The notes under the pieces: model-generated
What the model was told of the DNA's origin: nothing
Databases searched by the model: none
The model's input: the letters and a program-made list of their open reading frames with translations, nothing else
Shown here: positions 1 to 18,739 of the stretch, piece by piece
Layout of the letters: each line of letters starts with the position of its first letter
Position numbering within the stretch: position 1 is the first letter of the stretch
Program-made: the position numbers and the translations under genes
NCBI GenBank assembly: GCA_017999135.1
Contig: JAGOBT010000010.1
Location: 1 to 18,739, forward strand
DNA from: Burkholderiaceae bacterium
GTDB taxonomy: Bacteria > Pseudomonadota > Gammaproteobacteria > Burkholderiales > Burkholderiaceae_C
Direction: 5' to 3'
Length of the DNA: 18,739 nt

Positions 1-2
1 CG

Positions 3-269: not shown

Positions 270-299
270 CCCGGCGGCGCGGGCGCCCGCCCCGGGGCG

Positions 300-1919: not shown

Positions 1920-1937
1920 GCCCGCATTGTGGCGGGC
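1920..1937 (-). promoter_or_regulatory. Hairpin abutting the start codon of the GGT-family gene
   Basis: On the minus strand GCCCGC, loop CACAAT, GCGGGC forms a perfect 6-bp GC stem that ends directly against the ATG. No Shine-Dalgarno sequence is visible in the position where it would be expected. The loop CACAAT resembles a weak -10 box, which would give an almost leaderless transcript. Either reading is inference. Confidence 0.35.
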
Positions 1938-1977
1938 TGGCCCGGCCGGGTGTGTCGCCCAGGCTGCAAGACGCCGG

Positions 1978-3099: not shown

Positions 3100-3166
3100 G
3101 GGGTGTCCTGGAAAGGCGTGGAGCAGGGCGGCAGAAAGAAAGAGCGGTGGCGCGGCGGTGGACGGC

Positions 3167-3970: not shown

Positions 3971-3997
3971 TCAACCAGGCCGGCGGCTGATCGACCA
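3958..3997 (+). repeat. 20-bp tandem direct repeat across the trmJ stop codon
   Basis: Two adjacent 20-base units, 3958-3977 and 3978-3997, differ at two positions (TTGATCAA against CTGATCGA in the core). A third partial unit follows at 3998-4009. The first unit contains the trmJ stop TGA (3968-3970) and the second repeats a TGA in the same frame at 3988-3990. Confidence 0.8.
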
Positions 3998-4003
3998 GGC
4001 CAG

Positions 4004-4735: not shown

Positions 4736-5781
4736 GGCCCGGTGTCGCCGCTGTCGGCGTCTTCTGCTGCCGCTGCGCGGGCCTGCTGCTGCAGCGCGTC
4801 GCGCAGCGGCACCATGGCATCGCCCACCGCCGGCAGCGGCGTGGTGACGCCCCAGCGCAAGGCCGGCATCGGCAGCGTCGGCATGTAGGGGGCACTGAAC
4901 ACCCGACCCAGTTGGCGCTGGTTGATCACCCCGGTCACCACCACGCCGGCCAGCAGCACCGTGGCCAGCGCGGCGTTGATGGCCCATGCGCGCTGCGGCA
5001 GCAACTGGCGCAGGTGGCTGCGCACCACCAGCATGCCCAGGAGCGGCAGCCCCCATTGGTTGTAGACCTGCCACAGCCAGGGCCAGCCGAAGGCGGCAGC
5101 CGTGGTGGGCACCAGCAGGTCCACCACCTCGTAGACCAGCAGCCAGGCCAGGGCGATCGCAGCATGGCTGCTGAACTCGAAGCCGTGGCGGAACAGCTTG
5201 GAGCCCAGCGCCCACAGGCCGCACCACACGGCCAGCCCAGTGGGCAGGCCCAGCAGCCAGGGCAGCCATTCGACCAGGTCGGCGCCGGGGTCCAGCTGCA
5301 CCCAGCGGTGCAGCACCTGCGCCGCCACCCAGGCAGCCAGCAGGACCCACAGCGCCGCGCCGGCCACGCTGGGCTGGGCCAGCGGCCATTCAGGCGCCAC
5401 CGGCGCGCCGGCCAGCCGCAGCCGCAGGCGCTGCCCGCCGATGGCCAGCACCCCGCCGGCGGCCGGCAGCGGCATCTGTTCACCGGCACGCAGGCGGCGC
5501 CGGCCGATCTGCAGGCCGTTGCGGCTGTCGCCCACCTGCACCTGCGGCAGGCCGTCGGCACCCAGGGTCAGCGTGGCGTGGTGGGGCGCCACATGCGGGT
5601 CGTCCAGCACCCAGGTGTTGTCGAGCGCGCGGCCCAGTGTCACCGGCCAGGCGTGCACGTCCAGCGTGCGGCGCGCGCGGCCGTCGCGGTCGAGCAGCTC
5701 GATCAGCGCGAGGCGGGCTTCGGGGCGGCGGCCGGGGCGGTCTTCGGGCGGGTCTGCGGGGATGGCGGCGTGGTCGTCCAA
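4732..5781 (-). CDS. FHA-domain integral membrane protein
   Basis: 349 residues from the proposed TTG start. A forkhead-associated domain, normally a phosphothreonine-binding module, spans about residues 45-122: WPVTLGR (Gly50-Arg51), DDPHVAPHHATLTL with His68, and DSRNGL with Asn88-Gly89. After it come about five hydrophobic segments (near 139-157, 168-197, 207-226, 243-255, 266-286), and then a polar Ala/Asp-rich tail. The N-terminal FHA domain is therefore probably cytoplasmic, tethered to the inner membrane. No kinase or phosphatase domain is present. No ATG is available near the domain; the TTG at 5781 has GGAGG seven bases upstream. A CTG at 5706, overlapping the protease stop as CTGA, is the alternative. 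The gene overlaps the protease gene by 79 bases in another frame. Confidence 0.82.
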   Translation of the reverse strand: MDDHAAIPADPPEDRPGRRPEARLALIELLDRDGRARRTLDVHAWPVTLGRALDNTWVLDDPHVAPHHATLTLGADGLPQVQVGDSRNGLQIGRRRLRAGEQMPLPAAGGVLAIGGQRLRLRLAGAPVAPEWPLAQPSVAGAALWVLLAAWVAAQVLHRWVQLDPGADLVEWLPWLLGLPTGLAVWCGLWALGSKLFRHGFEFSSHAAIALAWLLVYEVVDLLVPTTAAAFGWPWLWQVYNQWGLPLLGMLVVRSHLRQLLPQRAWAINAALATVLLAGVVVTGVINQRQLGRVFSAPYMPTLPMPALRWGVTTPLPAVGDAMVPLRDALQQQARAAAAEDADSGDTGP

Positions 5782-7178
5782 CCGAAGCCCTCCAGGTAGT
5801 GGCGCGCCAGGCGCTGCGCGTTGTCGAAGCTCAGGGCCTGGGCGTCCAGCCGGCCCTGCACGCCAGCGTGGCTGCTGTCCAGCGACGCGGTGAGCACGCT
5901 CAGGTCGAACAGCTGCGGCAGCTTCTTGTAGGCCTGCAGGCACACCACCGCGCGCAGCGGCAGCCCGCCGCCGGCCGCCACGGTGCGCTCGGTGCACTGG
6001 GCGGCCACGCGGTGGGCGTCGCGCCGGCCCACCACCTCGTTGTGGAAGCTGTCGTTGTAGCGCTGCTGGAAGCGCAGTGCGCCCAGGTTGCTGCCGTCGT
6101 AGGTTTCATGGCGCACGCTGATGGTGCCGGTGCGCAGGCGCTCGTCGACGAACACGGCGCTGTCCATCGTGCAGTCGCTGCGCTCGAACACCAGGCCGCG
6201 GGTGGCCGTGTTGGTGCCGCTGCCCCAGCAGCGCGAGAAGGCCTCCATCGGCACCGGGATGCGGTAGCGCGGGTGGCTGGCGGCGCGCCAGGGCTGCTGG
6301 ATGAAGGCATCGACCAGGCCGGCCTGGTGCGCCAGCAGCTGGCGCTCGATCTCGGCATGCACCGGCTGGGTGATGGGCGTGGCGTTGCGCCCGCGCGCCA
6401 GCAGCGCCTGGGCCAGCGCCGCCGGCACCAGGAAGCTGACCTGTTCACCGTCTCGCCGGGCCGCCACGTTCACGCCCACCAGCCGGCCCTGCGCGTCCAG
6501 CGCCGGGCCGCCGCTCATGCCGCCGCTGAGCGACCCGCCGAAGAACAGCGTGGGCAGGTAGTGGCGCTCGGCCAGGCCGTTGTAGGCGCCTTCGGTGACG
6601 GCGAAGCCCACGTCCAGCGGGTTGCCCAGCGAGTAGATGCGCGCGCCGCGCTCGGGCTCGCTGCCCGGCCCGTCCGATGCGCGGAACGGCACGGCGCCGC
6701 GTCCGCGCAGCGGCGCCGGATCGGCCGGCTTCAGCAGCGCCAGGTCATGCAGCACGTCGAAGGCCAGCAACTGCAGCGCACCCTGCTGGCCGTCGACCGT
6801 GGCGTAGACCAGCCGGTGGCGCTGCGGTGCCAGCGCGTAGCTGCTGACCACGTGGTAATTGGTGATCAGGTGCCCCTCGGCCGTGACCAGGAAGGCCGAG
6901 CCCACCGACGACTGGCTGTCCTGCGTCTTCAGCAGGGTGCGCACCTGCAGCAGGCGGGGCTGCATCTCGGCGTAGATGCGCTGGCCGGTGCCCGACACCG
7001 CCCCGGCCGCTGATGCCGCCGGCGCGGCTGGTGCTGCAACGGCCGCCGGCGGCTCGGCCGCTGGCAGGGCCAGGCTGGCGGTGCCCAGGGCCAGCGCCAG
7101 GGTGGTGCGCAGCCCGGCCACCCGCCCGGCCCGGGCGGGCGGGCAGCGGCGGGCAGGCGGGCGCAGAGGGGCTGACAC
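5703..7178 (-). CDS. Secreted trypsin-like serine protease with extra C-terminal domain
   Basis: 491 residues from GTG 7178. An N-terminal export signal runs to about residue 42 (hydrophobic [16 protein letters not shown]), followed by an Ala/Pro linker. The S1-type protease domain, about 65-265, has the triad His109 (TNYHVV), Asp145 (HDLALLK) and Ser222 (GGMSGGPAL), with GSAFLV and YSLGNP blocks as in HtrA-like proteases. No PDZ domain follows. Instead there are about 220 residues I do not recognise, with four Cys (RCWG, DCTM, QCTE, VCLQ) that could form two disulfides, and a Pro/Ala/Lys tail. This suits a periplasmic or surface location. The start is uncertain: a GTG at 7121 (residue 20) would give a shorter and more standard signal peptide. 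It is first in a cluster with the FHA and SDR genes and diverges from cysE. Confidence 0.87.
5789..5793 (-). promoter_or_regulatory. Ribosome binding site supporting a TTG start of the FHA gene
   Basis: GGAGG on the minus strand lies seven bases before TTG (5781-5779), inside the end of the protease gene. It is the only good Shine-Dalgarno sequence near the start of this reading frame and decides the start choice. Confidence 0.55.
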
Positions 7179-7184
7179 GCAGGC

Positions 7185-7190
7185 AGTGTA
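7185..7190 (-). promoter_or_regulatory. Possible -10 box for the protease gene (TACACT)
   Basis: TACACT on the minus strand ends six bases before the GTG at 7178, which would give a leaderless transcript, or a leader of about 57 bases if the GTG at 7121 is used. No good -35 box is visible. Confidence 0.3.
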
Positions 7191-7238
7191 GGCGTCGTGG
7201 CCTGCCGGCGCGCCCCTGCACGCTGCGCAGGCCCGCAC

Positions 7239-7244
7239 TACACT
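7239..7244 (+). promoter_or_regulatory. Possible -10 box for cysE (TACACT)
   Basis: TACACT stands 27 bases before the cysE ATG. It mirrors the minus-strand TACACT of the divergent protease gene. A convincing -35 box is not seen. Confidence 0.35.
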
Positions 7245-7271
7245 GGCCAGCCGTTTGTTGCGAGCACTGCC

Positions 7272-8051
7272 ATGTTCAGCCGCCTCCGTGAAGACATCGC
7301 CTGCATTCGCGAGCGCGACCCCGCCGCGCGCTCGGCCTGGGAGGTGCTGACCTGTTACCCGGGCCTGCATGCGGTGATCTGGCACCGCTGGGCCCACCTG
7401 GCCTGGACGCACGGCTTCAAGTGGCTGGGGCGCTTCCTGTCGCACATCGGCCGCTTTCTCACCGGCATCGAGATCCACCCCGGCGCCACGGTGGGTCGGC
7501 GGGTGTTCATCGACCACGGCATGGGCGTGGTGGTGGGCGAGACGGCCGAGATCGGCGACGACTGCACCATCTACCAGGGTGTGACGCTGGGCGGCACCAG
7601 CCTGGGCCGCGGCACCAAGCGCCACCCCACCTTGGGCAAGGGCGTGATCGTCGGCGCCAATGCGCAGGTGCTGGGTGGCTTCACCGTGGGCGACGGCGCC
7701 CGCGTGGGGTCCAGCGCGGTGGTGATGAAGCCGGTGCCCCCGGGCGCCACGGCGGTCGGCAACCCGGCACGCATCATCCAGGCTGACGCCGAGGCCCAGC
7801 GTGAACAGGCCGCCGCCAAGATGGGCTTCTCGGCCTACGGCGTGACCAGCGGCGACGACCCGGTGTCGCAGGCCATGAAGGGCCTGATCGACAACGCCAG
7901 CAGCCAGGAGCACCAGATCACGCTGCTGTGGCAGGCGATCGAGAAGCTCTCGTCCGGCGCGCGTGAACTGCCCGGCACCGACTGCGTGCCGCAGGACGCC
8001 CAGACCAGCGAAGTCTTCGACGCCGCCCGGCTGAGCCGGCTGGTGAAGTAG
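7272..8051 (+). CDS. cysE: Serine O-acetyltransferase CysE
   Basis: 259 residues. The enzyme acetylates L-serine with acetyl-CoA, the first step of cysteine synthesis. A short helical N-terminal domain precedes a left-handed beta-helix built from hexapeptide repeats (about 66-170). The catalytic block is [17 protein letters not shown] with Asp81-His82, and the acetyl-CoA loop region [20 protein letters not shown] follows (103-122). This is the compact plant/NifP-like form, with a shorter N-terminal helix bundle than E. coli CysE (273 residues). The C-terminal stretch of about 90 residues is longer than usual and mostly helical and polar. The ATG is the natural start because the conserved region begins at residue 3. 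It diverges from the protease gene and converges on mogA with only 19 bases between. Confidence 0.95.
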
Positions 8052-8070
8052 CCGCAGCGGCCCGGGCGAT

Positions 8071-8688
8071 TCAGCCGCGGGGCGGCCGGACCGCGCTCTT
8101 GGGCCTGAACGCTTTGCACACCGTGTCGTCGGTGTCCAGATACGGCCCGCCGATCAGGTCGATGCAATAGGGCACCGCCGCAAAGATGCCGTGCACCGGC
8201 GGCGTGGCCTCGGGCAGGCCCTGCAGCGTCTCGGCAATGCTCTTGGGCTGGCCCGGCAGGTTGATGACCAGCGCCTGCTTGCGGATGACTGCCACCTGGC
8301 GGCTGAGGATGGCCGTGGGCACGAAGCGCAGGCTGATCTGGCGCATCTGCTCGCCGAAGCCGGGCATCTCCTTGTCGGCCACCGCCAGCGTGGCCTCGGG
8401 CGTCACGTCGCGCAGCGCCGGGCCGGTGCCGCCGGTGGTCAGCACCAGGTGGCAGCCTTGCACGTCGACCAGGTCGCGCAGCGTGGCGCTGATGCCGTCC
8501 TGCTCGTCGGGAATCAGCCGCGTCACCCAGGTGATCGGGTTGCGCAGCGCGCGGCCCAGCCAGTCCTGCAGCGCCGGGATGCCCTTGTCCTCATAGATGC
8601 CGGCCGAGGCGCGGTCGCTGACCGACACCAGGCCGATGGTGACCGGGTCGTGGGCGGTGTCGGTGGTGTTGTGGGGGGCGTCAGTCAT
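8071..8688 (-). CDS. mogA: Molybdopterin adenylyltransferase MogA
   Basis: 205 residues; E. coli MogA has 195. The enzyme adenylates molybdopterin before molybdate insertion in molybdenum cofactor synthesis. Landmarks are GLVSVSDRASAGIYEDKG (19-36), the nucleotide-binding TTGGTGPALRDVTPEAT (84-100) and LPGQPKSI (144-151). The N-terminal 14 residues are polar and variable. The ATG at 8688-8686 overlaps the end of darP by eight bases (darP stops at 8681), and the bases in front of it are a GAC-rich repeat with no Shine-Dalgarno sequence, so translation probably depends on coupling to darP. In-frame ATGs further upstream (8745, 8724) also lack ribosome binding sites and would add only Thr/Pro-rich sequence. 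It converges with cysE. Confidence 0.93.
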   Translation of the reverse strand: MTDAPHNTTDTAHDPVTIGLVSVSDRASAGIYEDKGIPALQDWLGRALRNPITWVTRLIPDEQDGISATLRDLVDVQGCHLVLTTGGTGPALRDVTPEATLAVADKEMPGFGEQMRQISLRFVPTAILSRQVAVIRKQALVINLPGQPKSIAETLQGLPEATPPVHGIFAAVPYCIDLIGGPYLDTDDTVCKAFRPKSAVRPPRG

Positions 8689-9268
8689 CGTCGTCGTCGG
8701 TGTCGTCGTCGGTGTCGTCGGCATGGGCCGGCTGGCCGGCCGCATCGGCCAGCCACGGCTTGACGAACTGGAACAGCTCGCGGTAGCCGCGGCCGTTGCG
8801 CTGCTCAGGCGCGGCGGCGGCGTCCTTGCGGGCGGCGCGCACCAGGCTGCGCAGGCGCTGCAGGTCGCTGCCGGGGAATTCGGCCGCCCAGCGCGTCAGG
8901 GCGTCGTCGTTGGCCACCAGCTCATCGCGCCAGCGCTCGGCCTCGTGCAGGGCCAGGGTGTCCTTGGCCGAGCCGAGCTTGAAGGCGTCGACCGCCGCCT
9001 GCAACGGCGCGGCATCGGCAAAGCGCATCTGCTTGCCGATGAACTGCAGCTGGCGCCGCTGGCCCTCGAAGCTCTTGGTCTTGCGGTACTGGTCGATGGC
9101 GTCGCGCAGGCCGTCGGGCATGGGCACGTCCTTGAGCCGGCTGCGGGGCAGGGCCACCAGTTCGGCACCCAGGGCCTGCAGATCGTGGGCCTGCTGCTTC
9201 AGCTTGGTCTTGCTGGGCTTCTCGAAGACGTAGGCGTCTGCGGGTTCGGTTTCGGGGCGTTGGCGCAT
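8681..9268 (-). CDS. darP: Ribosome-associated protein DarP/YjgA (DUF615)
   Basis: 195 residues, close to the family length of about 180. DarP (YjgA) associates with late 50S ribosomal subunit precursors and helps their maturation. The family pattern is clear: SKTKLKQQAHDLQALGAELV (19-38), DGLRDAIDQYRK, and SFEGQRRQLQFIGKQMR (66-82), followed by a helical C-terminal part with RGYRELFQFVKPWL. The last 12 residues form an Asp/Thr tail, TDDDTDDDDD, encoded by a 12-base tandem repeat. It diverges from pmbA, as in E. coli where yjgA and pmbA are also divergent neighbours, and it overlaps mogA by eight bases downstream. Confidence 0.93.
   Translation of the reverse strand: MRQRPETEPADAYVFEKPSKTKLKQQAHDLQALGAELVALPRSRLKDVPMPDGLRDAIDQYRKTKSFEGQRRQLQFIGKQMRFADAAPLQAAVDAFKLGSAKDTLALHEAERWRDELVANDDALTRWAAEFPGSDLQRLRSLVRAARKDAAAAPEQRNGRGYRELFQFVKPWLADAAGQPAHADDTDDDTDDDDD
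8687..8720 (-). repeat. 12-bp tandem repeat coding the Asp tail of DarP
   Basis: On the plus strand TCGTCGTCGGTG occurs twice perfectly (8691-8702 and 8703-8714), followed by a partial TCGTCGGC; the proximal part towards 8687 is a degenerate unit. Gain or loss of a unit would keep the darP frame and only change the number of Asp/Thr residues. Confidence 0.8.
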
Positions 9269-9319
9269 GGGCCTGTGGGGCTGGGTCGGGCGTTGAGAAG
9301 GCGTGCAGGGGGCGGTGGC

Positions 9320-9325
9320 TATGAT
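9320..9325 (+). promoter_or_regulatory. Possible -10 box for pmbA (TATGAT)
   Basis: TATGAT differs from consensus at one base and lies 33 bases before the pmbA ATG in the 90-base darP-pmbA divergent region. The nearest -35-like hexamer, TTGAGA at 9293-9298, is 21 bases away, longer than normal, so the pairing is doubtful. Confidence 0.35.
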
Positions 9326-9358
9326 TGTCGCCCACCTCGCTCCCAGGCCTTGCCTTCC

Positions 9359-10732
9359 ATGTCCGGTTCCACCACCTCCCAGGGGTTCGCCTTCAACCGC
9401 GGCCAGTTCCAGCAGATCATCGACGACACGCTGGCCATCGCGAAGAGCCTGGGTGCCAGCGATGCAGCAGCCGAGGTCAGCGAAGGTGCCGGCCTGTCGG
9501 TGTCGGTGCGGCTGGGCGCCATCGAGAACGTCGAGCGCAACCGTGACAAGAGCCTGGGCGTGACGGTCTACCTGGGCCAGCGCCGCGGCAATGCCAGCAC
9601 CAGTGATTTCTCAGCCGCCGCGCTGCAGCAGACGGTGCGCGCCGCCTACGACATCGCCCGCTTCACCGCGGAAGATCCGGCCGCCGGCCTGCCCGATGCC
9701 GAAGACCTGGCCACGCCCGATGTCGCCGGCATCGACCTCGACCTGTTCCACCCCTGGGGGGTGGATGCCGACGGCGCCGCCGCGCTGGCCCGCCGCTGCG
9801 AAGACGCGGCCTTTGCCACCAGCCCCAAGATCAGCAACAGCGAAGGCGCGGGCGTGTCGGCGCAGCAATCGCACTTCTGGGCGGGCAACAGCCGGGGTTT
9901 CCGCGGCGGTTATGCCAGCTCGCGCCATTCGCTGTCGGTGGCGCCGATCGCGGGCAAGGGCGCGGCCATGCAGCGTGACGCCTGGTACAGCAGCCAGCGC
10001 AATGCGATGGACCTGGCGTCGCCGGAGGCCGTGGGCCGCTATGCCGCCGAGCGGGCCCTGTCGCGGCTGAAGGGCCGCAAGGTGCCCACCTGCGAAGTGC
10101 CGGTGCTGTTCGAGAACACGCTGGCCGCCGGCCTGCTGGGCAGCATGGTGGGTGCACTCAGCGGCGGGTCGCTCTACCGCCGCGCCAGCTTTCTGATGGA
10201 CAGCGTGGGCACGGCCGTGATGGCCGAGCACCTGGACGTGGACGAAGACCCGCTGGTGCCCGGCGGCAAGGCCAGCGCCGCGTTCGACGACGAGGGCGTG
10301 CGCACGCGCAAGCGCCGGGTGGTCGAGGCCGGCGTGGTGCAGGGCTATTTCCTGTCCAGCTACTCGGCCCGCAAGCTGGGGCTGAAGACCACGGGCCATG
10401 CCGGCGGATCGCAGAACCTGGTGCTGCGCAGCCGACTGACCCGCCCGGGCGACCATCTGGACGAGATGCTGCGCAAGCTGCACCGCGGGCTGTTCGTCAC
10501 CGAGCTGATGGGCCAGGGCGTCAATGGCGTCACCGGCGACTATTCGCGTGGCGCGGCCGGCTACTGGGTGGAGGGCGGCCGCATCGTGCACCCGGTGCAT
10601 GAGGTGACCATCGCCGGCAACCTGAAGGACATGCTGCGCCACATCGTGGCGGTGGGTGCCGACAGCTATGTGTCGGGCGGCCGCACCGTGGGGTCGGTGC
10701 TGCTGGCGCGCATGAAAGTGGCGGGCAGCTGA
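9359..10732 (+). CDS. pmbA: Metalloprotease TldD/E family subunit PmbA (TldE)
   Basis: 457 residues; E. coli PmbA (TldE) has 450. TldE pairs with TldD in a cytoplasmic protease that degrades unfolded peptides and matures microcin B17 and CcdA. TldE lacks the HExxH zinc motif of TldD, and none is seen here. Recognisable features are the N-terminal AAEVSEGAGLSVSVRLGAIE region, ISNSEGAGVSAQQSHFWAGN in the middle, and the C-terminal domain with GYFLSSYSARKLGLKTTGHA and MGQGVNGVTGDYSRGAAGYW. The ATG at 9359 fits the homology; the frame continues upstream only with non-family sequence. No tldD is in the window. A hairpin terminator follows at 10782. Confidence 0.95.
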   Translation: MSGSTTSQGFAFNRGQFQQIIDDTLAIAKSLGASDAAAEVSEGAGLSVSVRLGAIENVERNRDKSLGVTVYLGQRRGNASTSDFSAAALQQTVRAAYDIARFTAEDPAAGLPDAEDLATPDVAGIDLDLFHPWGVDADGAAALARRCEDAAFATSPKISNSEGAGVSAQQSHFWAGNSRGFRGGYASSRHSLSVAPIAGKGAAMQRDAWYSSQRNAMDLASPEAVGRYAAERALSRLKGRKVPTCEVPVLFENTLAAGLLGSMVGALSGGSLYRRASFLMDSVGTAVMAEHLDVDEDPLVPGGKASAAFDDEGVRTRKRRVVEAGVVQGYFLSSYSARKLGLKTTGHAGGSQNLVLRSRLTRPGDHLDEMLRKLHRGLFVTELMGQGVNGVTGDYSRGAAGYWVEGGRIVHPVHEVTIAGNLKDMLRHIVAVGADSYVSGGRTVGSVLLARMKVAGS

Positions 10733-10781
10733 CCACGCATCGCCGGCGCGTGGCCACCCATTGCAGGGTTGTCCGGGTTTC

Positions 10782-10810
10782 ACCGCCCATGCCGGGGCGG
10801 TTGGCCTTTT
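10782..10810 (+). terminator. Rho-independent terminator after pmbA
   Basis: ACCGCCC (10782-10788), loop ATGCCG, GGGCGGT (10795-10801) form a perfect 7-bp GC-rich stem followed by TGGCCTTTT, an interrupted T run ending at 10810. It lies 50 bases after the pmbA stop and immediately before the -10 box of the next gene. Confidence 0.6.
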
Positions 10811-10815
10811 AGAAT
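10810..10815 (+). promoter_or_regulatory. Likely -10 box of dctP (TAGAAT)
   Basis: TAGAAT differs from TATAAT at one base and would start transcription about 30 bases before the dctP ATG. Its first T is the last T of the pmbA terminator. No clear -35 box is found at 16-18 bases, so an activator may be needed. Confidence 0.4.
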
Positions 10816-10842
10816 CCGGCCGGTTTGATTGCAAACTTGCCT

Positions 10843-10848
10843 AGGAGA
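10843..10848 (+). promoter_or_regulatory. Ribosome binding site of dctP (AGGAGA)
   Basis: AGGAGA five bases before the ATG at 10854 is one of the strongest Shine-Dalgarno matches in the window and fixes the dctP start. Confidence 0.75.
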
Positions 10849-10853
10849 TCTGC

Positions 10854-11936
10854 ATGGAACGTCGATTGTTTGTCCGCGGTGCCGGCTTGGCCGGTGTGTT
10901 GGCCGCGGGCACTGCGCCTGCCATCGTGCACGCGCAAGCCAACCTGCGTTGGCGCCTCACCTCGAGCTTTCCGAAAGCGCTCGACACGCTGTTCGGGGTC
11001 AACGACATCTTCGCCGCCAAGGTGAAGGAGCTGACCGGTGGCAAGTTCGTCATCACCACCCATGCGCCGGGTGAACTGGTGCCCGCCTTCGGCGTGGTCG
11101 ACGCCATCCAGGCCGGCACCGTGGAAATGGCCAACACCGCGCCGTACTACTTCTTCGGCAAGGACGAGACCTTCGCGCTGGGCTGCGCCATCCCCTTCGG
11201 TCTGAACAGCCGGCAGATGACGGCCTGGGCCTATGAAGGCAACGGCCTGAAGCTGATGCGCGATTTCTATCGCCAGTACAACATCATCAACTTCCCGATG
11301 GGCAACACCGGGGCGCAGATGGGCGGCTGGTTCCGCAAGCCCATCGGCTCGCTGGCCGACATGAAGGGCCTGAAGTTCCGCGTGGGCGGCTTCGCCGGCA
11401 AGGTGGTCGAGCGCATCGGCGGCGTGCCGCAGAACATCCCCGGCGGCGAGATCTACCAGGCGCTGGAAAAGGGCACGATCGACGCGGCCGAGTGGGTGGG
11501 CCCGTACGACGACCAGAAGCTGGGCTTCTACAAGGTGGCCCAGAACTACGCCTACCCGGGCTGGTGGGAAGGCGGCCCGCAGCTGGACCTGTACGTCAAC
11601 ACCAAGGCCTACGATGGCCTCAGCGCCGAGTACAAGGCCGTGATCGAGTGCGCCGCGGCCTACGCCCACACCGACATGCAGGCCAAGTACGACGGCAAGA
11701 ACGCCGCCGCGCTGAAGACCCTGGTGGCTGGCGGTGCCAAGCTGTTCCCGTTCCCGAAGGACCTGATGGACGCGGCCTTCAAGGAATCGATGGCGCTGTA
11801 CAGCGAGATCGCTGCCAAGAACCCGAACTGGAAGAAGGTCTACGACGACTATTCGAAGTTCCGCGCCGAGCAGAACCTGTGGTTCCGCTTCACCGAGGCC
11901 ACCTTCGACGACTTCATGCAGCGCCAGAAGCTGTGA
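10854..11936 (+). CDS. dctP: TRAP transporter periplasmic substrate-binding protein (DctP/TakP type)
   Basis: 360 residues. This is the extracytoplasmic receptor of a tripartite ATP-independent periplasmic transporter; it captures an organic acid and hands it to DctQM for Na+-driven uptake. The N-terminus ERRLFVRG followed by a hydrophobic Gly/Ala stretch and IVHAQA looks like a Tat signal peptide cut near residue 27. Gln155, Arg176 (LKFRVGGF), Glu213-Trp214 and the block WVGPYDDQKLGF (214-225), then YPGWWEGG, match the TakP branch, whose members bind 2-oxo or related monocarboxylates with a metal ion (family knowledge; substrate here is inferred only). It faces dctQ-dctM-rdhA across tandem terminators, so it is in a separate transcript from its presumed membrane partners. 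Confidence 0.94.
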   Translation: MERRLFVRGAGLAGVLAAGTAPAIVHAQANLRWRLTSSFPKALDTLFGVNDIFAAKVKELTGGKFVITTHAPGELVPAFGVVDAIQAGTVEMANTAPYYFFGKDETFALGCAIPFGLNSRQMTAWAYEGNGLKLMRDFYRQYNIINFPMGNTGAQMGGWFRKPIGSLADMKGLKFRVGGFAGKVVERIGGVPQNIPGGEIYQALEKGTIDAAEWVGPYDDQKLGFYKVAQNYAYPGWWEGGPQLDLYVNTKAYDGLSAEYKAVIECAAAYAHTDMQAKYDGKNAAALKTLVAGGAKLFPFPKDLMDAAFKESMALYSEIAAKNPNWKKVYDDYSKFRAEQNLWFRFTEATFDDFMQRQKL

Positions 11937-11942
11937 GGCCGT

Positions 11943-11960
11943 GGCGGCCTGGTGGCCGCC
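11943..11960. other. GC hairpin after dctP
   Basis: GGCGGCC, loop TGGT, GGCCGCC form a perfect 7-bp stem a few bases after the dctP stop. No T run follows, so it is probably an mRNA 3'-end structure and not a terminator by itself. Confidence 0.5.
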
Positions 11961-11972
11961 GGCTGTTGCCAC

Positions 11973-11999
11973 CAGGCCCTGCATCGCAGGGCCTGTTTT
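11973..11999 (+). terminator. Rho-independent terminator 1 of dctP
   Basis: CAGGCCCTGC (11973-11982), loop ATC, GCAGGGCCTG (11986-11995) make a perfect 10-bp stem followed by TTTT. The T run is on the plus strand, so it mainly stops dctP transcripts. Confidence 0.85.
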
Positions 12000-12005
12000 G
12001 CCCGG

Positions 12006-12027
12006 GCCCCGCATTGCGGGGCTTTTT
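12006..12027 (+). terminator. Rho-independent terminator 2 of dctP
   Basis: GCCCCGC, loop ATT, GCGGGGC make a perfect 7-bp stem followed by TTTTT (12023-12027). The last T is part of the opposing gene's stop codon. Read on the minus strand the stem lacks a following T run, so it gives weak if any termination for that gene. Confidence 0.85.
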
Positions 12028-14156
12028 CATGGGCCAGGCGGCTTGCCGCGGCGGCGCCGGCGGGCGGCTGCCGGTGTCTCGGCCGCAGCGGCGGCGGCCA
12101 GGCCGGCAGCGCGGTCCAGCGGTACGGTGGTGGCCAGCGTGGTGCCACCGGCCGGCTGCAGTGCCGGCGGAAAGAACGCCAGCTTCTGCGCCGCGGCCAG
12201 CTTGGCATCGCGGCCGGGTGACAGGTCACGCGCATGGGTGCCGGCCGCTGGCACCTGCACCACGCCGTCGATGATTTCCAGGTCGAACCACCAGCGCTTG
12301 ACCGGGTTGCGCACGCCGCCGCCGCTGGCGTCGTCATGGTCGATCAGCTGGCGGCGGCTGGCTGGCACCTCGATCGACAGCCACAGCAGCCGGTCGGCTT
12401 CGACCAGGTCCTCGCGGTTGTAGGGGCAGGTCTTCATGCAGCGGCCGCAGGCCGAACCCTTCATGTTGGTCAGGCGGTACTTGCCGCACTTCTCGACATC
12501 GGGCTTCCAGAGTTCGTAGCCGTTGAACATCACCTTCGGACCGAAGGGGATGGCGTTGCACGGGCATTCGCGTGCGCACTTGCGGCACAGGTTGCACACC
12601 GCCTGCAGGCCGAAGTCGATCGGCTTGTCCGGCACCAGTGGCAGGCTGGTGGTGATGACCACCGACTTCGAGCGCGGGCCGATGAACGGGTTGAGGATCA
12701 GTTCGCCGATGCGTGACAACTCGCCCAGGCCGGCCATCAGCACCGCCGGAATGTGCAGCAGCTCGGAATGCGCGTTCGAGTGCACCCGCGACGAATGGCC
12801 CAGCCGCCGCAGATGGGCGGCCAGCACGCCGGCCAGCAGTGCGCCACGCAGGTAGGCGCGCATTGACTGCGCGCCAGAGATCCAGTCATCTCCCGAGGCG
12901 CCTTCCATGGTCTCGAAGCCCTGGTCGATCAGCAGCACGATGGCGAACGGGTGGTAGGCGTCGATCGGCCGGCCCTCGGTCTCGTCGTGCGAGTAGTACA
13001 TCCAGGGCTCGGCCGCGCAGATGCCGACCAGCTCGGCGCCCAGGAAGTGCGCCAGCGCCTTCACTGCCAGCGTGTTGTGCGCCGCATCCTGCAGCGGTGG
13101 GCCGATGTGGGTGGGCGGCAGGGGCTCGCGGGTGCCTTGCAGCGGCACCAGGCCGCGGATCAGCGGCGTCATCGCCCAGGCCAGCGGATGCTTAACGGCG
13201 AAGCGGCTGCGCTCCTGCCGGGGCTTGTCGCCCAGGTCGCCGGCCAGTGCGCGGGTGAACAGGTCGGCACGCTTGGGCACACGCTGGATCTCGTCGCGCA
13301 GCACCAGGGTGGTGGGTTCGTCCACCCGCGGAATGCGCTCCATCGGGTGGCGGCCCTGGTGCAGCGGGCGGTGCGCCTGCTCGGCGGCGTCGAAGCCGGG
13401 GCGGGTGCCGCCCACGCCCATGTAGGCATCACTGTCGGGCCAGCACAGCGGTGTGCCTGGGGCGATGGGCAGGTCGGTGGCCATGGCATAGGAGGTGGTC
13501 ACCACGCCCACGCGGAAGCCGTTGCCGGTGAAGGGCATGGCCAGCACACCGTTCACTGCCACGGCAACGCCGGCGCGCTGCGCCAGCAGGCACAGGTCGA
13601 CCTGGGGTGGGTCCAGGTCATGGCCCTGCACATGACCCTGCACATGGCCCTGCGCAGCCCAGCCCAGGGTGCGGATGTAGCCGGCCACCACCGCCGCCAC
13701 TTCGGCACAGCGCAGGTCGGTGCGGGCGGCGTTGCTGCCGGCTGTCCAGGCCGCGCCGGGCTCGTCGGCATGGGCCTCGCGGCTGAACTCCACCAGGAAG
13801 ACCAGCGCGTGGGTGTGGCCGGCGCAAGCGCCGTCGGCCAGGTCGCCGGACCGCAGCGCGCACACGCCGGCCAGCGTGGCGTCCAGGAAGATGGCCGTGG
13901 CCTTCAGGTTGTCGGCGCGGGCCTGCAGATCGTCGGGCACTGGCGCCTGGGCGGCGGCCACGGCGCCCGCCAGGTGGCCTGCGCACAGCGCCAGGTAGTC
14001 GGGCACCACCGCGGCCACGGCCTGGGTGGTGGCCGCGGTGCTGTCGCCGGGCTGGCGTGCCGGCCACTCCGGGGCGCCAGCCTGCCGTGGCAGCCGCTCG
14101 GCAGGCAACGGCCCCAGGTGCACCGGGCGATCACGATGAGAGTGCAGCCGCGCCAT
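12027..14156 (-). CDS. Reductive dehalogenase family protein, soluble NpRdhA-like type
   Basis: 709 residues. The family uses cobalamin and two 4Fe-4S clusters to remove halogen from organic compounds. First cluster motif: Cys521, 524, 527, 531 (CNLCRKCARECP). Second: Cys557, 570, 573, 577 (CX12CX2CX3CP). Tyr435 (SMRAYLR), Lys497 (GPRSK) and Arg561 (KYRLTN) have spacings of 62 and 64 residues, the same as Tyr426/Lys488/Arg552 of NpRdhA as I recall them. There is no Tat signal, no membrane segment and no fused flavin/2Fe-2S reductase, so it is probably a cytoplasmic, catabolic-type enzyme needing an external electron donor. Residues about 12-235 look like a degenerate copy of 265-515. The Ala/Arg-rich end is likely disordered. 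The gene lies 37 bases after dctM on the same strand and is probably cotranscribed. QueG was considered and rejected on size and spacing. Family call is strong; actual dehalogenation is inferred. Confidence 0.88.
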   Translation of the reverse strand: MARLHSHRDRPVHLGPLPAERLPRQAGAPEWPARQPGDSTAATTQAVAAVVPDYLALCAGHLAGAVAAAQAPVPDDLQARADNLKATAIFLDATLAGVCALRSGDLADGACAGHTHALVFLVEFSREAHADEPGAAWTAGSNAARTDLRCAEVAAVVAGYIRTLGWAAQGHVQGHVQGHDLDPPQVDLCLLAQRAGVAVAVNGVLAMPFTGNGFRVGVVTTSYAMATDLPIAPGTPLCWPDSDAYMGVGGTRPGFDAAEQAHRPLHQGRHPMERIPRVDEPTTLVLRDEIQRVPKRADLFTRALAGDLGDKPRQERSRFAVKHPLAWAMTPLIRGLVPLQGTREPLPPTHIGPPLQDAAHNTLAVKALAHFLGAELVGICAAEPWMYYSHDETEGRPIDAYHPFAIVLLIDQGFETMEGASGDDWISGAQSMRAYLRGALLAGVLAAHLRRLGHSSRVHSNAHSELLHIPAVLMAGLGELSRIGELILNPFIGPRSKSVVITTSLPLVPDKPIDFGLQAVCNLCRKCARECPCNAIPFGPKVMFNGYELWKPDVEKCGKYRLTNMKGSACGRCMKTCPYNREDLVEADRLLWLSIEVPASRRQLIDHDDASGGGVRNPVKRWWFDLEIIDGVVQVPAAGTHARDLSPGRDAKLAAAQKLAFFPPALQPAGGTTLATTVPLDRAAGLAAAAAAETPAAARRRRRGKPPGP
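13619..13654 (-). repeat. Three 12-bp tandem repeats inside the dehalogenase gene
   Basis: Units 13619-13630, 13631-13642 and 13643-13654 read CATGGCCCTGCA on the plus strand with one or no mismatch each. They encode the peptide GHVQGHVQGHD (170-180) in the degenerate N-terminal domain. Confidence 0.8.
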
Positions 14157-14193
14157 GGTCGGTGCCTGGTTGCGGGCGGCTGGCCGAGCCGGG

Positions 14194-16011
14194 CTACTTC
14201 TTGGTCGCGTCCTTGTTCACCGATTCCAGCAGCGCCTTCATCGGGTCTTCGTTGTTCTCGGTCGCCGACGGTGCGGCGGCGCCCGGGGCGCTGGCGCCGG
14301 CATCCATGCCAGGCATCGGCGCCGGCGCCTCCCGCGCGGGCATGCCCATGCTCTCCAGCGCCTTGTCGGCGTCGATCTGCACCGCGTTGCCGATGCCGTC
14401 TGTCACCATGCCCGGAAAGGCGATGACTGCCGCCACCATGATCACCTGCAGGCAGATGAAGGCGATCGAGCCCTTGTAGATCTGGGCCGTGGTCACGGCG
14501 GGGATGTTCTCGCCGGTGATGCGGTCCTTGTAGTCGGCCTTGGCCGCCACGCTGCGCAGGTAGAACAGCGCAAAGCCGAACGGCGGCGTCAGGAAGGACG
14601 TCTGCAGGTTCATCGCCAGCACCACACCGAACCAGACCATGATCGCGTCGACCGGCGTGCCGGGCGGGAACATGCCCGGCAGGATCTTCTCGGCCACCGG
14701 CATCAGGATCGGAATCACGATGAAGGCGATCTCGAAGAAGTCGATGAAGCAGCCCAGGATGAACACCAGGACGTTCACCACGATCAGGAAGCCCAGCGCG
14801 CCGCCGGGCAGCTTGTCGAACAGGTGCTCCACCCAGATGTGGCCGTCGGCCGCGTTGAAGGTGAAGCTGAACACCGTGCTGCCGATCAGGATGAACAGCA
14901 CGAAGGTGGCCAGCTTGGCGGTGCTGTCCAGCGCCTGGTGCATCAGCGCGCCGCTGAGCTTGCGGCGGCCCATCGCCATCAGCAGCGCGCCCAGCGCGCC
15001 CATGGCGCCGCCTTCGGTGGGTGTGGCCACGCCCAGGAAGATGGTGCCCAGCACCAGGAAGATCAGCACCAGCGGCGGGATCAGCACATAGGTGAAGCGC
15101 TCGGCCAGCTTCGACAGCAGGCCCATGCGCGTCACGCTGTTGACGATGGCCAGCCCCAGCGCCAGGAACGATGCCACGGTCAGCGACATGATCAGCACTT
15201 CATCACCCGGCGACGGGTTGGTGCGGCCCAGCCAGGCCTTGAACAGGCTGTCATGCACCTGCGACCAGGCGTACGCGGCGCCGCCGCACACGGCCAGCAG
15301 CACCAGCAGCGACACATGGCCCGAGGCGCCGTTGGCTTCGCGGTAGATGCGAGCCTCCTGCGGCAGGGCAGGCACCCACTTGGGCTTGACGAAGGCCACC
15401 ACCGCGACGAAGGCGATGTACAGCGCCACCAGCAGCAGGCCCGGCACCATGGCGCCGGCGTACATGTCGCCCACGCTGCGGCCCATCTGGTCGGCCAGCA
15501 CGATCAGCACCAGGCTGGGCGGGATGGCCTGCGCCAGCGTGCCGCTGGCGGTGATGGTGCCGGTGGCGATGGTGCGGTTGTAGCCGTAGCGCAGCATGAT
15601 GGGCAGCGAGATCAGGCCCATGCTGATCACCGCCGCGGCCACGACGCCGGTGGTGGCGGCCAGCAGCGCGCCCACCAGGATGACAGCTACCGCCAGACCG
15701 CCGCGCAGCGGGCCGAACACCTGGCCCACCGTCTCGAGCAGGTCTTCGGCCATGCCCGACCGCTCGAGGATGATGCCCATGAAGGTGAAGAACGGGATCG
15801 CCAGCAGGGTGTCGTTCTGCATGATGCCGAACACCCGCTGCGGCAGCGCCTGGAACAGGCTGGTGGGGAACAGCCCCACCTCCATGCCGATGAAGCCGAA
15901 CAGCAGGCCGGTGGCTGCCAGGCCGAAGGCCACCGGGATGCCGGTGAGCAGGAACACGAACAGGCCGCCGAACAGCAGCGGCACGAAGTTCTGGGTGATG
16001 AATTCGGTCAT
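14194..16011 (-). CDS. dctM: TRAP transporter large permease DctM
   Basis: 605 residues. DctM is the multi-helix membrane subunit that moves the substrate with Na+; the standard form has about 430 residues and 12 helices. Typical blocks are IPVAFGLAATGLLFGFIG near the N-terminus, NDTLLAIPFFTFMGIILERS (66-85), SGTLAQAIPPSLVLIVLADQ, ATPTEGGAMGALGALL and LTPPFGFALFYLRSVA. The extra length comes from a central insertion around the hydrophobic SLLVLLAVCGGAAYAW segment and from a Pro/Ala/Met-rich tail of about 65 residues after the last helix. This longer form is known from TakM-type systems. The ATG at 16011 is two bases after the dctQ stop (TGACATG), so the two are translationally coupled. The dehalogenase gene follows after 37 bases. 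Confidence 0.95.
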   Translation of the reverse strand: MTEFITQNFVPLLFGGLFVFLLTGIPVAFGLAATGLLFGFIGMEVGLFPTSLFQALPQRVFGIMQNDTLLAIPFFTFMGIILERSGMAEDLLETVGQVFGPLRGGLAVAVILVGALLAATTGVVAAAVISMGLISLPIMLRYGYNRTIATGTITASGTLAQAIPPSLVLIVLADQMGRSVGDMYAGAMVPGLLLVALYIAFVAVVAFVKPKWVPALPQEARIYREANGASGHVSLLVLLAVCGGAAYAWSQVHDSLFKAWLGRTNPSPGDEVLIMSLTVASFLALGLAIVNSVTRMGLLSKLAERFTYVLIPPLVLIFLVLGTIFLGVATPTEGGAMGALGALLMAMGRRKLSGALMHQALDSTAKLATFVLFILIGSTVFSFTFNAADGHIWVEHLFDKLPGGALGFLIVVNVLVFILGCFIDFFEIAFIVIPILMPVAEKILPGMFPPGTPVDAIMVWFGVVLAMNLQTSFLTPPFGFALFYLRSVAAKADYKDRITGENIPAVTTAQIYKGSIAFICLQVIMVAAVIAFPGMVTDGIGNAVQIDADKALESMGMPAREAPAPMPGMDAGASAPGAAAPSATENNEDPMKALLESVNKDATKK

Positions 16012-16012
16012 G

Positions 16013-16630
16013 TCAGTTCAACTTGGCGGCGGCCAGCTTGGCTTCACGTTGAGCGGCTTCTTCGGCCAGGGCCTGGGCGAATTTTTCTTCCTCGAGCTTG
16101 TCGTCGAACTCGGTGAAGGGCTCGGCCAGATGGCCGCCCAGGAAGGCGAAGCGCTTGATCAGTTCACTCACCGCCTGCAGCAGCAGGATGGCGAAGCCCA
16201 GCGGCACCAGCAGCATCACCGGCCAGCGGATCAGGCCGCCGGCGTTCTGGCTCATCTCGCCGCTCTCCCAGGCGCGCATGAACAGCGGCCAGCCCAGGTC
16301 GATCATGATGACCGACAGCGGGATGGTGAAGATGATGATGCCGATGGCGTCGATCCAGGCGTTGGTGCGCTTGCTCAGCTTGTTGCTGATGAAGTCGATG
16401 CGCACATGGGCGTTCTTCAGCATCACGTAGCCCACGCCGAGCATGAACACGGCGGCGAACAGGTACCACTGGATTTCCAGGAACGCGTTCGAGCCGATGT
16501 TGAAGGCCTTGCGCACGATGGCGTTGGTGGCGCTGATCAGCACGGCGGCCAGCACCAGCCACATGGTGAGCTTGCCGATCAGCGTGTTCATCGCATCGAT
16601 GGCACGCGACAGTTTCAGGAACGGTTGCAC
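16013..16630 (-). CDS. dctQ: TRAP transporter small permease DctQ
   Basis: 205 residues, in the normal range for DctQ. It is the four-helix membrane subunit that partners DctM and docks DctP. Hydrophobic segments lie near 22-39, 53-72, 92-111 and 134-156; LEIQWYLFAAVFMLGVGYVM and NAHVRIDFISNKLS are the family signature. The last 40 residues are a charged helix (DKLEEEKFAQALAEEAAQRE), probably cytoplasmic. I chose the GTG at 16630, which has AGGAG five bases upstream (16636-16640); the frame remains open further upstream but with non-family sequence and no better ribosome binding site. It is the first gene of the dctQ-dctM-dehalogenase operon. A 193-base non-coding stretch separates it from guaC; I see no firm promoter in it. 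Confidence 0.93.
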   Translation of the reverse strand: MQPFLKLSRAIDAMNTLIGKLTMWLVLAAVLISATNAIVRKAFNIGSNAFLEIQWYLFAAVFMLGVGYVMLKNAHVRIDFISNKLSKRTNAWIDAIGIIIFTIPLSVIMIDLGWPLFMRAWESGEMSQNAGGLIRWPVMLLVPLGFAILLLQAVSELIKRFAFLGGHLAEPFTEFDDKLEEEKFAQALAEEAAQREAKLAAAKLN

Positions 16631-16635
16631 GGAGA

Positions 16636-16640
16636 CTCCT
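16636..16640 (-). promoter_or_regulatory. Ribosome binding site supporting a GTG start of dctQ
   Basis: AGGAG on the minus strand stands five bases before GTG (16630-16628). It outweighs the upstream ATG of the same open frame, which would add 43 residues unlike any DctQ. Confidence 0.65.
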
Positions 16641-16823
16641 GCACGACGGTGTGGCGGGTGGACGGCGCGCCCGGGCGGGCCGGCATCCACGCAAATCTGC
16701 GCAGGCCCATGGCGAACCTGCAACGGAAGGTGCGACTGTACGCAAGCCTGAGGCCACACTGGCCGGAAAACCCCCGAACCCAGGGTAATCCCAGGCTGGG
16801 CTGCCCCTGGCCCGCGGGGCGGG

Positions 16824-17801
16824 CTACATGAACAGGTGCTCGCCGGCGTTCTCGCCGCCCAGGATCACGTAGTTCACCTTCTTGAGATCGGTCAAGACGC
16901 GGCCGCCGGCGTAGCTGATGCTGCTCTGCAGGTCTTCATGCATCTCGCGCAGGGTGTCGGCCAGCTTGCCCTTGACCGGCTCGAGGATGCGCTTGCCCTC
17001 GACGTGCTTGTATTCGCCCTTGTTGAAGTCGCTGGCCGAGCCGTAGTACTCCTTGTACAGCTTGCCATCCACTTCCACCGTGGCGCCGGGTGATTCTTCA
17101 TGGCCAGCGAACAGCGAGCCCACCATCACCATCGCCGCGCCGAAGCGCACGCTCTTGGCGATGTCACCGTGGTGGCGGATGCCGCCGTCGGCCACGATGG
17201 GCTTGCTGGCCACGCGGGCGCACCACTTCAGCGCGCTGAGCTGCCAGCCGCCGGTGCCGAAGCCGGTCTTCAGCCGGGTGATGCACACCTTGCCCGGGCC
17301 GATGCCGACCTTGGTGGCGTCGGCGCCCCAGTTCTCCAGGTCGATCACGCCCTCGGGCGTGCCCACGTTGCCGGCGATGACGAAGGCGTCGGGCAGCCGC
17401 TGCTTGATGTGGCCGATCATGCGGCGCACGCTCTCGGCATGGCCGTGGGCGATGTCGATGGTGACGTAGTCGGCGCCGATGCCGGTGGCCGCCAGCTGGT
17501 CGATCACTGCGGCGTCGGCCGGCTTCACGCCGGCGCTGATCGACACGAACAGGCCCTTGTCGCGCATGCGGCGGGCATAGGCCACGCTGTCGAGGTCGAA
17601 GCGGTGCATCACGTAGAAGTGGCCGCTGGCGGCCAGCTGCTCGGTGATGGCTTCGTCGACCACCGTCTTCATGTTGGCCGGCACCACCGGCAGCTTGAAG
17701 CGACGCGGGCCGAACTGCACCGAGGTGTCGCACTCGGCGCGGCTGTCCACCCGGCACTGGCGCGGCAGCAGCAGGATGTTGTCGTAGTCGAAGATGTCCA
17801 T
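16824..17801 (-). CDS. guaC: GMP reductase GuaC
   Basis: 325 residues, the size of the short GuaC type. GMP reductase converts GMP to IMP and ammonia with NADPH in purine salvage. It has the IMPDH/GMPR TIM barrel without the CBS insertion of IMP dehydrogenase. The active-site loop is [20 protein letters not shown] with Cys173 (166-185); the KVCITR form and the following TGFG separate it from GuaB, which has SICTTR. Also visible are [12 protein letters not shown] (39-50), [10 protein letters not shown] (115-124) and [15 protein letters not shown]. The ATG at 17801 begins the family's [13 protein letters not shown]. Upstream lie 179 non-coding bases with two hairpins. It is transcribed towards dctQ, and its stop is 193 bases from the dctQ start on the same strand. 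Confidence 0.95.
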
Positions 17802-17897
17802 GGCAGGGGTTCTCGTCGCGGTTGAGCCGGGGCGTTGTGCAGTGCCACGGCAAAGGCTGCGAGCGCTTGACCTGGGGGGACCGGCCGGCTTGCGATG

Positions 17898-17930
17898 CCG
17901 CCCGGCAGGGGGCGGTGCAAGCAATGCACC
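17898..17930 (-). promoter_or_regulatory. Two adjacent hairpins in the guaC leader
   Basis: Stem 1 is CCGCCC (17898-17903), loop of six, GGGCGG (17910-17915). Stem 2 is GGTGCA (17914-17919), loop AGCAA, TGCACC (17925-17930). They overlap by two bases and so could be alternative structures, or stem 2 could be a palindromic operator. No known purine riboswitch core is recognised. Confidence 0.35.
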
Positions 17931-17958
17931 GGACGCCAGAATGTGGGCCCGGTGGCCG

Positions 17959-17964
17959 ATTCTA
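17959..17964 (-). promoter_or_regulatory. Possible -10 box for guaC (TAGAAT)
   Basis: TAGAAT on the minus strand, followed by C-GGCC like the box before dctP, lies between the stop of the secreted-protein gene and guaC. It would give a leader of about 150 bases. No -35 box is recognised. Confidence 0.3.
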
Positions 17965-17980
17965 CGCAGGGCCTGGCGGC

Positions 17981-18646
17981 TCAGCGGCAGCCATCGGCCG
18001 CCATCGCGATGATGCGGCCGTCGGGCGCCTCCAGCCAGGCGCGGGCTTGCAGCCGCTCGGGTTGGGCGGTCTCGGGCCAACGCAGTGCACGCAGGTGCGT
18101 CAGGCGCTGGCCCGGGTTGGCGCCGTCCAGTGGCAACGGGCCGGCCACGCTGCGCACCAGGGCGCGCGCTTGTGCATTGCCCTCGCTGCCGGCCGGCAGC
18201 TGTTCCACCAGCGCCATCCAGGCCGTGGTGCCTGCGGGCCAGGCCGGGCGCATGGGTGGCAGCAGGCTGAGCTGCACGCCGAAGTAGCCGCGCCATGCCG
18301 GCCCGGCGCCCACCCGCAACGACAAGCCGGGCCGCGCCGGCACGCCGGCACGCCGCAGCTGCTGCGGCGCCGTGGACGTGGGCGCGGCCGCGCCGGTGCG
18401 CTGCAGGCGGTCGCGTGCATCGTCCAGTGCAGCGGCGGCCAGCGGCGCGTCGGCGCCGGTCGGGGTGATCCAGTCGAGCCGCCAGCCGGGCTGGGCGGGC
18501 GCTTGGGTACCGGCCCAGCAGCCGGGGCAATCGGCAGCGATGAAGGTTTCCGCCAGCGGCGCGCCCGGCCCCGGACAGGCCGACCTGGCCGCCGTGCTGC
18601 AGGCCAGCGCAGCCAGCAGGCCGGCTCCTATAATCAATGGATGCAT
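17981..18646 (-). CDS. Hypothetical secreted protein with CxxC motif
   Basis: 221 residues, family not recognised. Residues 1-23 look like a signal peptide (hydrophobic [13 protein letters not shown], then STAARSA as a possible cleavage site); ALAC is a poor lipobox. The mature start has [14 protein letters not shown] with Cys40 and Cys43, a CPGC pair reminiscent of thioredoxin-like or metal-binding sites, followed by [11 protein letters not shown]. The rest is Ala/Arg/Pro-rich with scattered Trp, and [11 protein letters not shown] and [13 protein letters not shown] near the end. Codon use is like the neighbours. The ATG at 18646 has no clear ribosome binding site. It is divergent from the helicase gene at the window end, with the -10 box of that gene inside its first codons. 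Confidence 0.7.
18629..18634 (+). promoter_or_regulatory. Perfect -10 box (TATAAT) facing the window end
   Basis: TATAAT on the plus strand in otherwise GC-rich DNA would start transcription near 18641, about 30 bases before the proposed helicase start. A recognisable -35 hexamer is absent at 16-18 bases upstream. Confidence 0.45.
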
Positions 18647-18670
18647 GCATAGTATTCTGAGGCCCCAGGC

Positions 18671-18739
18671 CTGGTCGGCACCGGCTCGCTGCTGAAGGGC
18701 CTTAACCCCGAACAGCACGCGGCCGTCACCCTGCCCAGC
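18671..18739 (+). CDS. 5' end of a UvrD/Rep-type DNA helicase (truncated by window edge)
   Basis: The last codons read [17 protein letters not shown]. LNPEQxxAV followed by P is the Q-motif region that opens superfamily 1 helicases such as UvrD, PcrA and Rep, just before the Walker A site, which would lie beyond the window. The frame is closed by TAG at 18650-18652 and contains no ATG, GTG or TTG after it. I therefore propose CTG at 18671, which has GAGG (18659-18662) eight bases upstream; CTG 18686 is a second candidate, and a base error in the 5' region is a third explanation. It is divergent from the secreted-protein gene. Confidence 0.55.

Follow-up and report, generated by a model that had tools for sequence, protein, structure and literature searches.

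A gene resembling those of reductive dehalogenases (RdhA) lies among the genes of a tripartite ATP-independent periplasmic (TRAP) transporter in a Burkholderiaceae bacterium (assembly GCA_017999135.1, contig JAGOBT010000010.1), and the locus raises two questions: which enzyme the gene encodes, and whether its neighbours tell anything about its function. The whole stretch of 18,739 nucleotides, positions 1 to 18,739 of the contig, was analyzed, and is hereafter called the window; the gene is called rdhA. The reading favoured here, at a probability of roughly 75%, is that rdhA encodes a cytoplasmic enzyme with cobalamin and two 4Fe-4S clusters, having a chemistry like that of NpRdhA of Nitratireductor pacificus pht-3B, and that it is a lone gene added to a TRAP locus already existing.

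The rdhA frame is open throughout from an ATG start, and encodes 709 residues. The product is 61% identical to NpRdhA over 684 residues, matches PDB entries 4ras/6zxu with an E value of about 1e-283, and has a predicted fold which superposes on that of NpRdhA with a template modelling (TM) score of 0.94; the soluble, NpRdhA-like dehalogenase proposed by a first-pass annotation of the sequence is thereby borne out, and a Burkholderiales-type host, also proposed, is supported. The duplicated cobalamin-binding domain fold is present in the model. Features of respiratory RdhAs are missing, as no twin-arginine translocation (Tat) signal is seen by eye at the N-terminus (MARLHSHRDRPVHLGPLP), and the neighbours are DctM and DctP, not an RdhB anchor. 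The C-terminal end is as in NpRdhA, with no fused reductase. By alignment and predicted structure, the window protein is a catabolic-type soluble RdhA of the NpRdhA kind. The ratio of nonsynonymous to synonymous substitution rates between the window gene and the Pseudaquabacterium pictum copy is 0.19.

Tyr435, Lys497, Arg561 and the eight cysteines picked out by the first-pass annotation are all in place (Table 1). An alignment run as a check of the trio sets it, with an offset of +9, on the catalytic residues Tyr426, Lys488 and Arg552 of NpRdhA, and the eight cysteines on its cluster cysteines; the spacing of the trio given in the first-pass annotation (62 and 64 residues) is the same in both enzymes. 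Ser422, Met423, Tyr426, Lys488 and Arg552 (NpRdhA numbers) are kept in 256 of 256 aligned sequences, the cluster cysteines in 255, and because these residues are near-invariant the match goes beyond chance. The whole polar and catalytic set (Ser431, Met432, Tyr435, Asn461, Lys497, Arg561, window numbers) is the same as in NpRdhA.

Epoxyqueuosine reductase (QueG) has the class III cobalamin fold in common with the window protein, and some databases call relatives QueG or ferredoxin. A check for closeness to QueG, profile TIGR00276, gave 10.9 bits (cut-off 200; E 0.16) and a TM score of about 0.2, and the identification as QueG or plain ferredoxin was rejected; that the protein is QueG or some other cobalamin/Fe-S enzyme devoid of dehalogenase activity is exceedingly improbable. 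Close relatives carry varied source names (ferredoxin, QueG, Fe-S protein, reductive dehalogenase), so that annotation easily misses the family, and NCBI already labels some of them reductive dehalogenase domain proteins.

Among known systems, NpRdhA (PDB 4ras, 6zxu, 6zxx, 6zy0, 6zy1) shares with the window protein the fold, the cysteines, the Tyr/Lys/Arg trio, Ser422, Met423, Asn452 and the lack of a fused reductase, and differs from it at Phe290, Lys307, Pro311 and Ala419, and for the linked ferredoxin genes described in PMC10463259. BhbA, encoded by plasmid pBHB of Comamonas sp. 7D-2, and JtRdhA (unaligned here) are similar in catalytic and cluster residues, catabolic role and absence of a Tat signal; in contrast to the window protein, both carry a C-terminal reductase. 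BhbA is 41% identical to the window protein, features the pocket pattern FFDSVS, and its gene resides among ring-cleavage genes. PceA-type respiratory RdhAs (4uqu, 8q4h) share the fold of the C-terminal half, the clusters and, by alignment, the trio.

The substrate wall differs from that of NpRdhA at four residues (F290L, K307R, P311A, A419G). According to PMC7565698, on NpRdhA and 3,5-dibromo-4-hydroxybenzoate, Lys307 forms a salt bridge at the entrance with a benzoate group, and Ala419 borders the pocket in which the second bromine sits. In the window protein the entrance charge is thus kept, and the wall side chains are smaller. The pocket pattern of the window protein, LFRFAG, was found in 129 of the 256 sequences; MFRFAG was found in 6, FFRFAG in 4, FFRFPA in 71, and FFKFPA, the NpRdhA pattern, in 11; the remaining 35, among them 12 fused enzymes, have other patterns. 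The set is a non-random one: it combines the closest homologues of NpRdhA and of the window protein with the fetched loci other than L023, L024, L030, L042 and L031 (the last too short), and includes some near-copies. The homologue lists are the best 120 of 4770 and the best 120 of 4663, and the pocket frequencies thus describe the nearest relatives alone. A tree built from 88 of these 256 rows separates the 12 fused enzymes from the rest (support 100). Of the 76 non-fused rows, 31 form a PA/AA group to which NpRdhA belongs (support 89) and 43 a main AG group to which the window protein belongs (support 86), and L020 and L025 are found beside them. Support for all 45 AG rows as a single group is 46. 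No publication on an LFRFAG sub-clade in Burkholderiales appears among the titles and opening lines of abstracts listed from the open-licence literature. Judging from the alignment, the pocket variant of the window enzyme is a conserved one.

Most likely, by analogy with NpRdhA, the enzyme acts in the cytoplasm and takes ortho halogens off a 4-hydroxyaryl acid, an unlinked ferredoxin supplying the electrons. Reduced ferredoxin would feed the two 4Fe-4S clusters and these a base-off cob(I)alamin, whose Co(I) would attack the ring halogen. The phenolic hydroxyl would be held by Lys497, Arg561 and Ser431, the acid group met by Arg316 at the entrance, and a proton given by Tyr435, tuned by Lys497. 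The product, for example 4-hydroxybenzoate, would enter the aromatic catabolism of the host. Genome G011 has a 4-hydroxybenzoate 3-monooxygenase over the cut-off, in G000 short contigs carry two partial matches to the same enzyme, and LigB-type dioxygenases occur in both genomes; to judge from these genes, the host side could use 4-hydroxybenzoate.

A true dehalogenase acting in nature on something other than a 4-hydroxyaryl acid, such as free halophenols, or some halogenated natural product of greater bulk, is a possibility of some weight, though less probable than the acid. At three positions the wall of the pocket is more open than that of NpRdhA, and, according to PMC10463259 and PMC13101508, the fused JtRdhA accepts many bromophenols and a marine relative accepts 2,6-dibromophenol. 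Against such substrates, all 120 homologues among the matches listed have Arg where the Lys of NpRdhA meets the carboxylate at the entrance, so that the positive charge is kept, whereas fused enzymes have N, G or D. Three PA-type loci, on the other hand, speak for such substrates, as rdhA resides together with genes for a sulfatase-type protein and for a TctC-type binding protein in L017:5157-10676, L019:1962-7423 and L026:7034-12618. A match to the sulfatase profile was obtained in L017 and L026, and the L019 gene is sulfatase-sized; a halogenated aryl sulfate is conceivable as the source of substrate in these hosts.

The electron donor was sought at the loci themselves. A tblastn search of the window and 33 loci (a few fetched twice) with the BhbA reductase gave no match in the window, and matched only the fused enzymes of L027 and L028; 2Fe-2S motif matches outside these two look like chance frames. 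A ferredoxin-type open reading frame (ORF) directly follows rdhA in a Noviherbaspirillum (L022:9917-10261), the only such case among the loci scanned, and one reminiscent of the linkage reported for NpRdhA. Since the window has no linked donor, and only L022 such an ORF, we infer a generic electron supply. In N. pacificus a ferredoxin reductase and two ferredoxins are linked to NpRdhA, though these failed in vitro (PMC10463259).

Gaps of 1 and 37 bases separate dctQ, dctM and rdhA, which share a strand; dctP runs toward them. The first-pass annotation had placed the gene in a transporter operon. A match to dctM was found in 16 genomes, that of the window included, and flanks were read in nine others of the same genus (G410, G400, G403, G406, G401, G356, G409, G404, G011); G143, G402, G405, G407, G413 and G411 fall outside this reading. 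Seven of the nine TRAP loci have no rdhA, which tells against a functional tie between dehalogenase and transporter. In these (G410, G400, G403, G406, G401, G356, G404), dctM and dctP are adjacent, with 76–185 bases between the coding ends, and pmbA and yjgA are found behind dctP in six; the seventh locus (L065, G406) begins inside dctP. In G011, rdhA lies between dctM and dctP as in the window. G409 has a decayed remnant (L068:6500-7200), in which the start of rdhA, right after dctM, is joined to the part around codon 533, in the last quarter, and which contains a premature stop and a break of the frame; as this is a draft genome in 320 contigs, an assembly error is possible. Between the two genes, a hairpin rich in G+C and accompanied by A and T runs was seen by eye in five of the seven empty sites (L062, L063, L066, L067, L069; the first three were also folded), and is less clear in L064 and L065. 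On the simplest reading, rdhA entered a resident locus, where the transporter was probably present before it, at a point between the dctM stop and the intergenic dctM/dctP hairpin. The gene would be mobile without partners, and probably transcribed by riding on the TRAP transcript.

The opposite course, in which the ancestor of the genus already had rdhA at its TRAP locus and the gene was lost several times, is rather unlikely. Loss does occur, as denoted by the G409 remnant; on the other hand, the seven empty loci retain no rdhA match in their short dctM-dctP intervals, the place of rdhA varies across hosts, and in G401, where the TRAP site is empty, rdhA is on another contig, in a copy (taken to be L005) which groups with Hydrogenophaga copies. 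The latter observation also speaks against a dedicated unit for uptake and dehalogenation of a halogenated acid, judged very unlikely after the empty-site comparison. The close spacing on one strand would suit such a unit, as would the BhbA gene, which comes after that of a TctC-type binding protein, and plasmid pANY103b of Aminobacter (L092:2543-9222), where TRAP genes and a MarR regulator are found close to a reductase-fused rdhA relative. Against it, dctP is 92% identical in two relatives lacking rdhA, most other rdhA loci have different neighbours, and DctP resembles 2hzk and a ketoacid-binding protein. The former, which we take to be TakP, a 2-oxo-acid binder, is named a sorbitol/mannitol protein by the structure search. 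The neighbourhood of rdhA and transporter looks incidental, and the window clearly exemplifies an accessory gene within a locus already in place.

Several points weigh against the reading of a lone, NpRdhA-like gene added to this locus. The window protein scores 156.4 bits with the NCBIfam reductive dehalogenase profile TIGR02486, below the curated cut-off of 160.35, which NpRdhA (171.8), the P. pictum orthologue (166.7) and BhbA (203.3) pass. The predicted local distance difference test (pLDDT) score of the model is under 50 at residues 418–422 and 534–536, next to the active site, and the shape of the pocket is for this reason unsettled by the model. No characterised enzyme of the LFRFAG type was found in the open-licence literature, and no ferredoxin or reductase gene is linked to rdhA in the window. 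The cobalamin gene cobS is just over the cut-off in G011, and was not found in G000 (71% complete). A consensus scan left the window hairpin unflagged as a terminator and gave no promoter-like site; the scan returned no more than two terminator-like sites, a number below that in shuffles, and both fall in the dctM-rdhA spacer. The Aminobacter plasmid, lastly, speaks against a purely incidental association with TRAP genes.

Table 1. Coordinates of the rdhA gene, of residues discussed and of neighbouring elements in the window.
Feature	Coordinates	Strand	Basis
rdhA, NpRdhA-type reductive dehalogenase, 709 residues	12027..14156	-	ORF, profile, alignment, predicted fold
First 4Fe-4S motif, Cys521/524/527/531	12564..12596	-	motif and alignment
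Second 4Fe-4S motif, Cys557/570/573/577	12426..12488	-	motif and alignment
Tyr435 codon, aligned with NpRdhA Tyr426 (proton donor in NpRdhA)	12852..12854	-	
Lys497 codon, aligned with NpRdhA Lys488	12666..12668	-	
Arg561 codon, aligned with NpRdhA Arg552	12474..12476	-	
Gly428 codon, aligned with NpRdhA Ala419 (second-bromine pocket)	12873..12875	-	
Ala320 codon, aligned with NpRdhA Pro311	13197..13199	-	
Arg316 codon, aligned with NpRdhA Lys307 (entrance salt bridge to substrate carboxylate)	13209..13211	-	
Leu299 codon, aligned with NpRdhA Phe290	13260..13262	-	
dctM, TRAP large permease; occurs without rdhA in relatives	14194..16011	-	
dctQ, TRAP small permease	16013..16759	-	
dctP, solute-binding protein of the TRAP transporter, convergent with rdhA; nearest solved chain 2hzk, also matches 7ug8 (ketoacid-binding)	10854..11936	+	
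Spacer of 37 bases, dctM stop to rdhA start	14157..14193	-	
G+C-rich hairpin straight after the stop of rdhA, with a T run toward dctP only	12006..12022	.	unflagged by the consensus scan

The gene is patchy in genomes and numerous as database sequences. Matches to rdhA were found in 11 of 399 genomes of the family, four of them standalone (62–100% identity) and seven at 43–46%; six of the latter lie in open frames of 1073–1270 residues, one in a frame of 640 residues at a contig end. At the genus level, 5 of 21 genomes match, three with standalone genes and two in long frames. The first-pass annotation had held such enzymes to be rare outside anaerobic dehalorespirers, a view at odds with the 4770 clustered homologues, fused relatives perhaps included, found at E ≤ 1e-40 among 7995 scored candidates. 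Neighbours of rdhA, as sorted by ORF clustering, make 22 different pairs in 24 loci, a count covering loci other than L001, L007, L023, L024, L027, L028, L030 and L031; neighbour ORFs were drawn not by a gene caller but by a G+C-frame heuristic, which chose the wrong strand over rdhA in L007. In Limnohabitans, the gene second behind rdhA in strain Rim11 is present in 17 of 60 genomes. In these, rdhA stands at the site only in G443 (taken for Rim11); 15 have no rdhA match there, and in G428 the contig ends earlier. One of the 15, G327, carries on another contig a copy 90% identical to that of Rim11. A second insertion test, at G133, gave nothing, since one genome only is at hand in that genus. 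In G133 (L093, L094) the gene upstream of rdhA, sensor kinase-like by its first residues, has a second copy elsewhere, 94% identical.

Studies of catabolic, oxygen-tolerant reductive dehalogenases cover few enzymes, and the structural and mutant work found on the non-fused kind concerns NpRdhA. The window offers, in an ordinary heterotroph, a natural pocket variant at A419, a position already engineered in NpRdhA, and makes two questions testable: how the pocket change affects the choice of substrate, and which donor serves when no ferredoxin gene is linked. Many uncharacterised relatives reside in sequence databases; for the window enzyme, halogenated phenol-type acids are the predicted substrates. 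The locus is also one where reasoning from gene neighbours misleads, the transporter being probably older there. A broader proposal, advanced tentatively and doubtful as it stands, is that the LFRFAG sub-clade comprises functionally distinct, numerous orphan catabolic dehalogenases of Burkholderiales, whose pocket may be widened for a second ortho substituent and suited to halogenated phenolic acids occurring naturally in soils and fresh waters, and which may settle as lone genes in resident transcription units, with no visible mobile element, drawing electrons from generic ferredoxins.

The G+C content of rdhA is 0.716, compared to 0.63–0.71 for dctM, dctQ, dctP, yjgA, mogA and cysE, and gives no clear signal of foreign composition; nor was carriage by viruses detected, as judged from the lack of matches in phage records and of relatives in viral contigs. 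Window genes other than rdhA, dctP, dctQ, dctM and that of an FHA protein (ggt, trmJ, cysE, mogA, yjgA, pmbA, guaC and others) were named from their translations. TctC-type genes are very numerous in Burkholderiales; for this reason no claim is drawn from the TctC-type neighbours (cluster c2), found in 10 of 32 entries, in which the window and L001 represent one genome. In L024:9001-11059, the matches to rdhA are split between two frames which overlap (query residues 1–145 and 143–698), denoting either a frame break or an assembly error.
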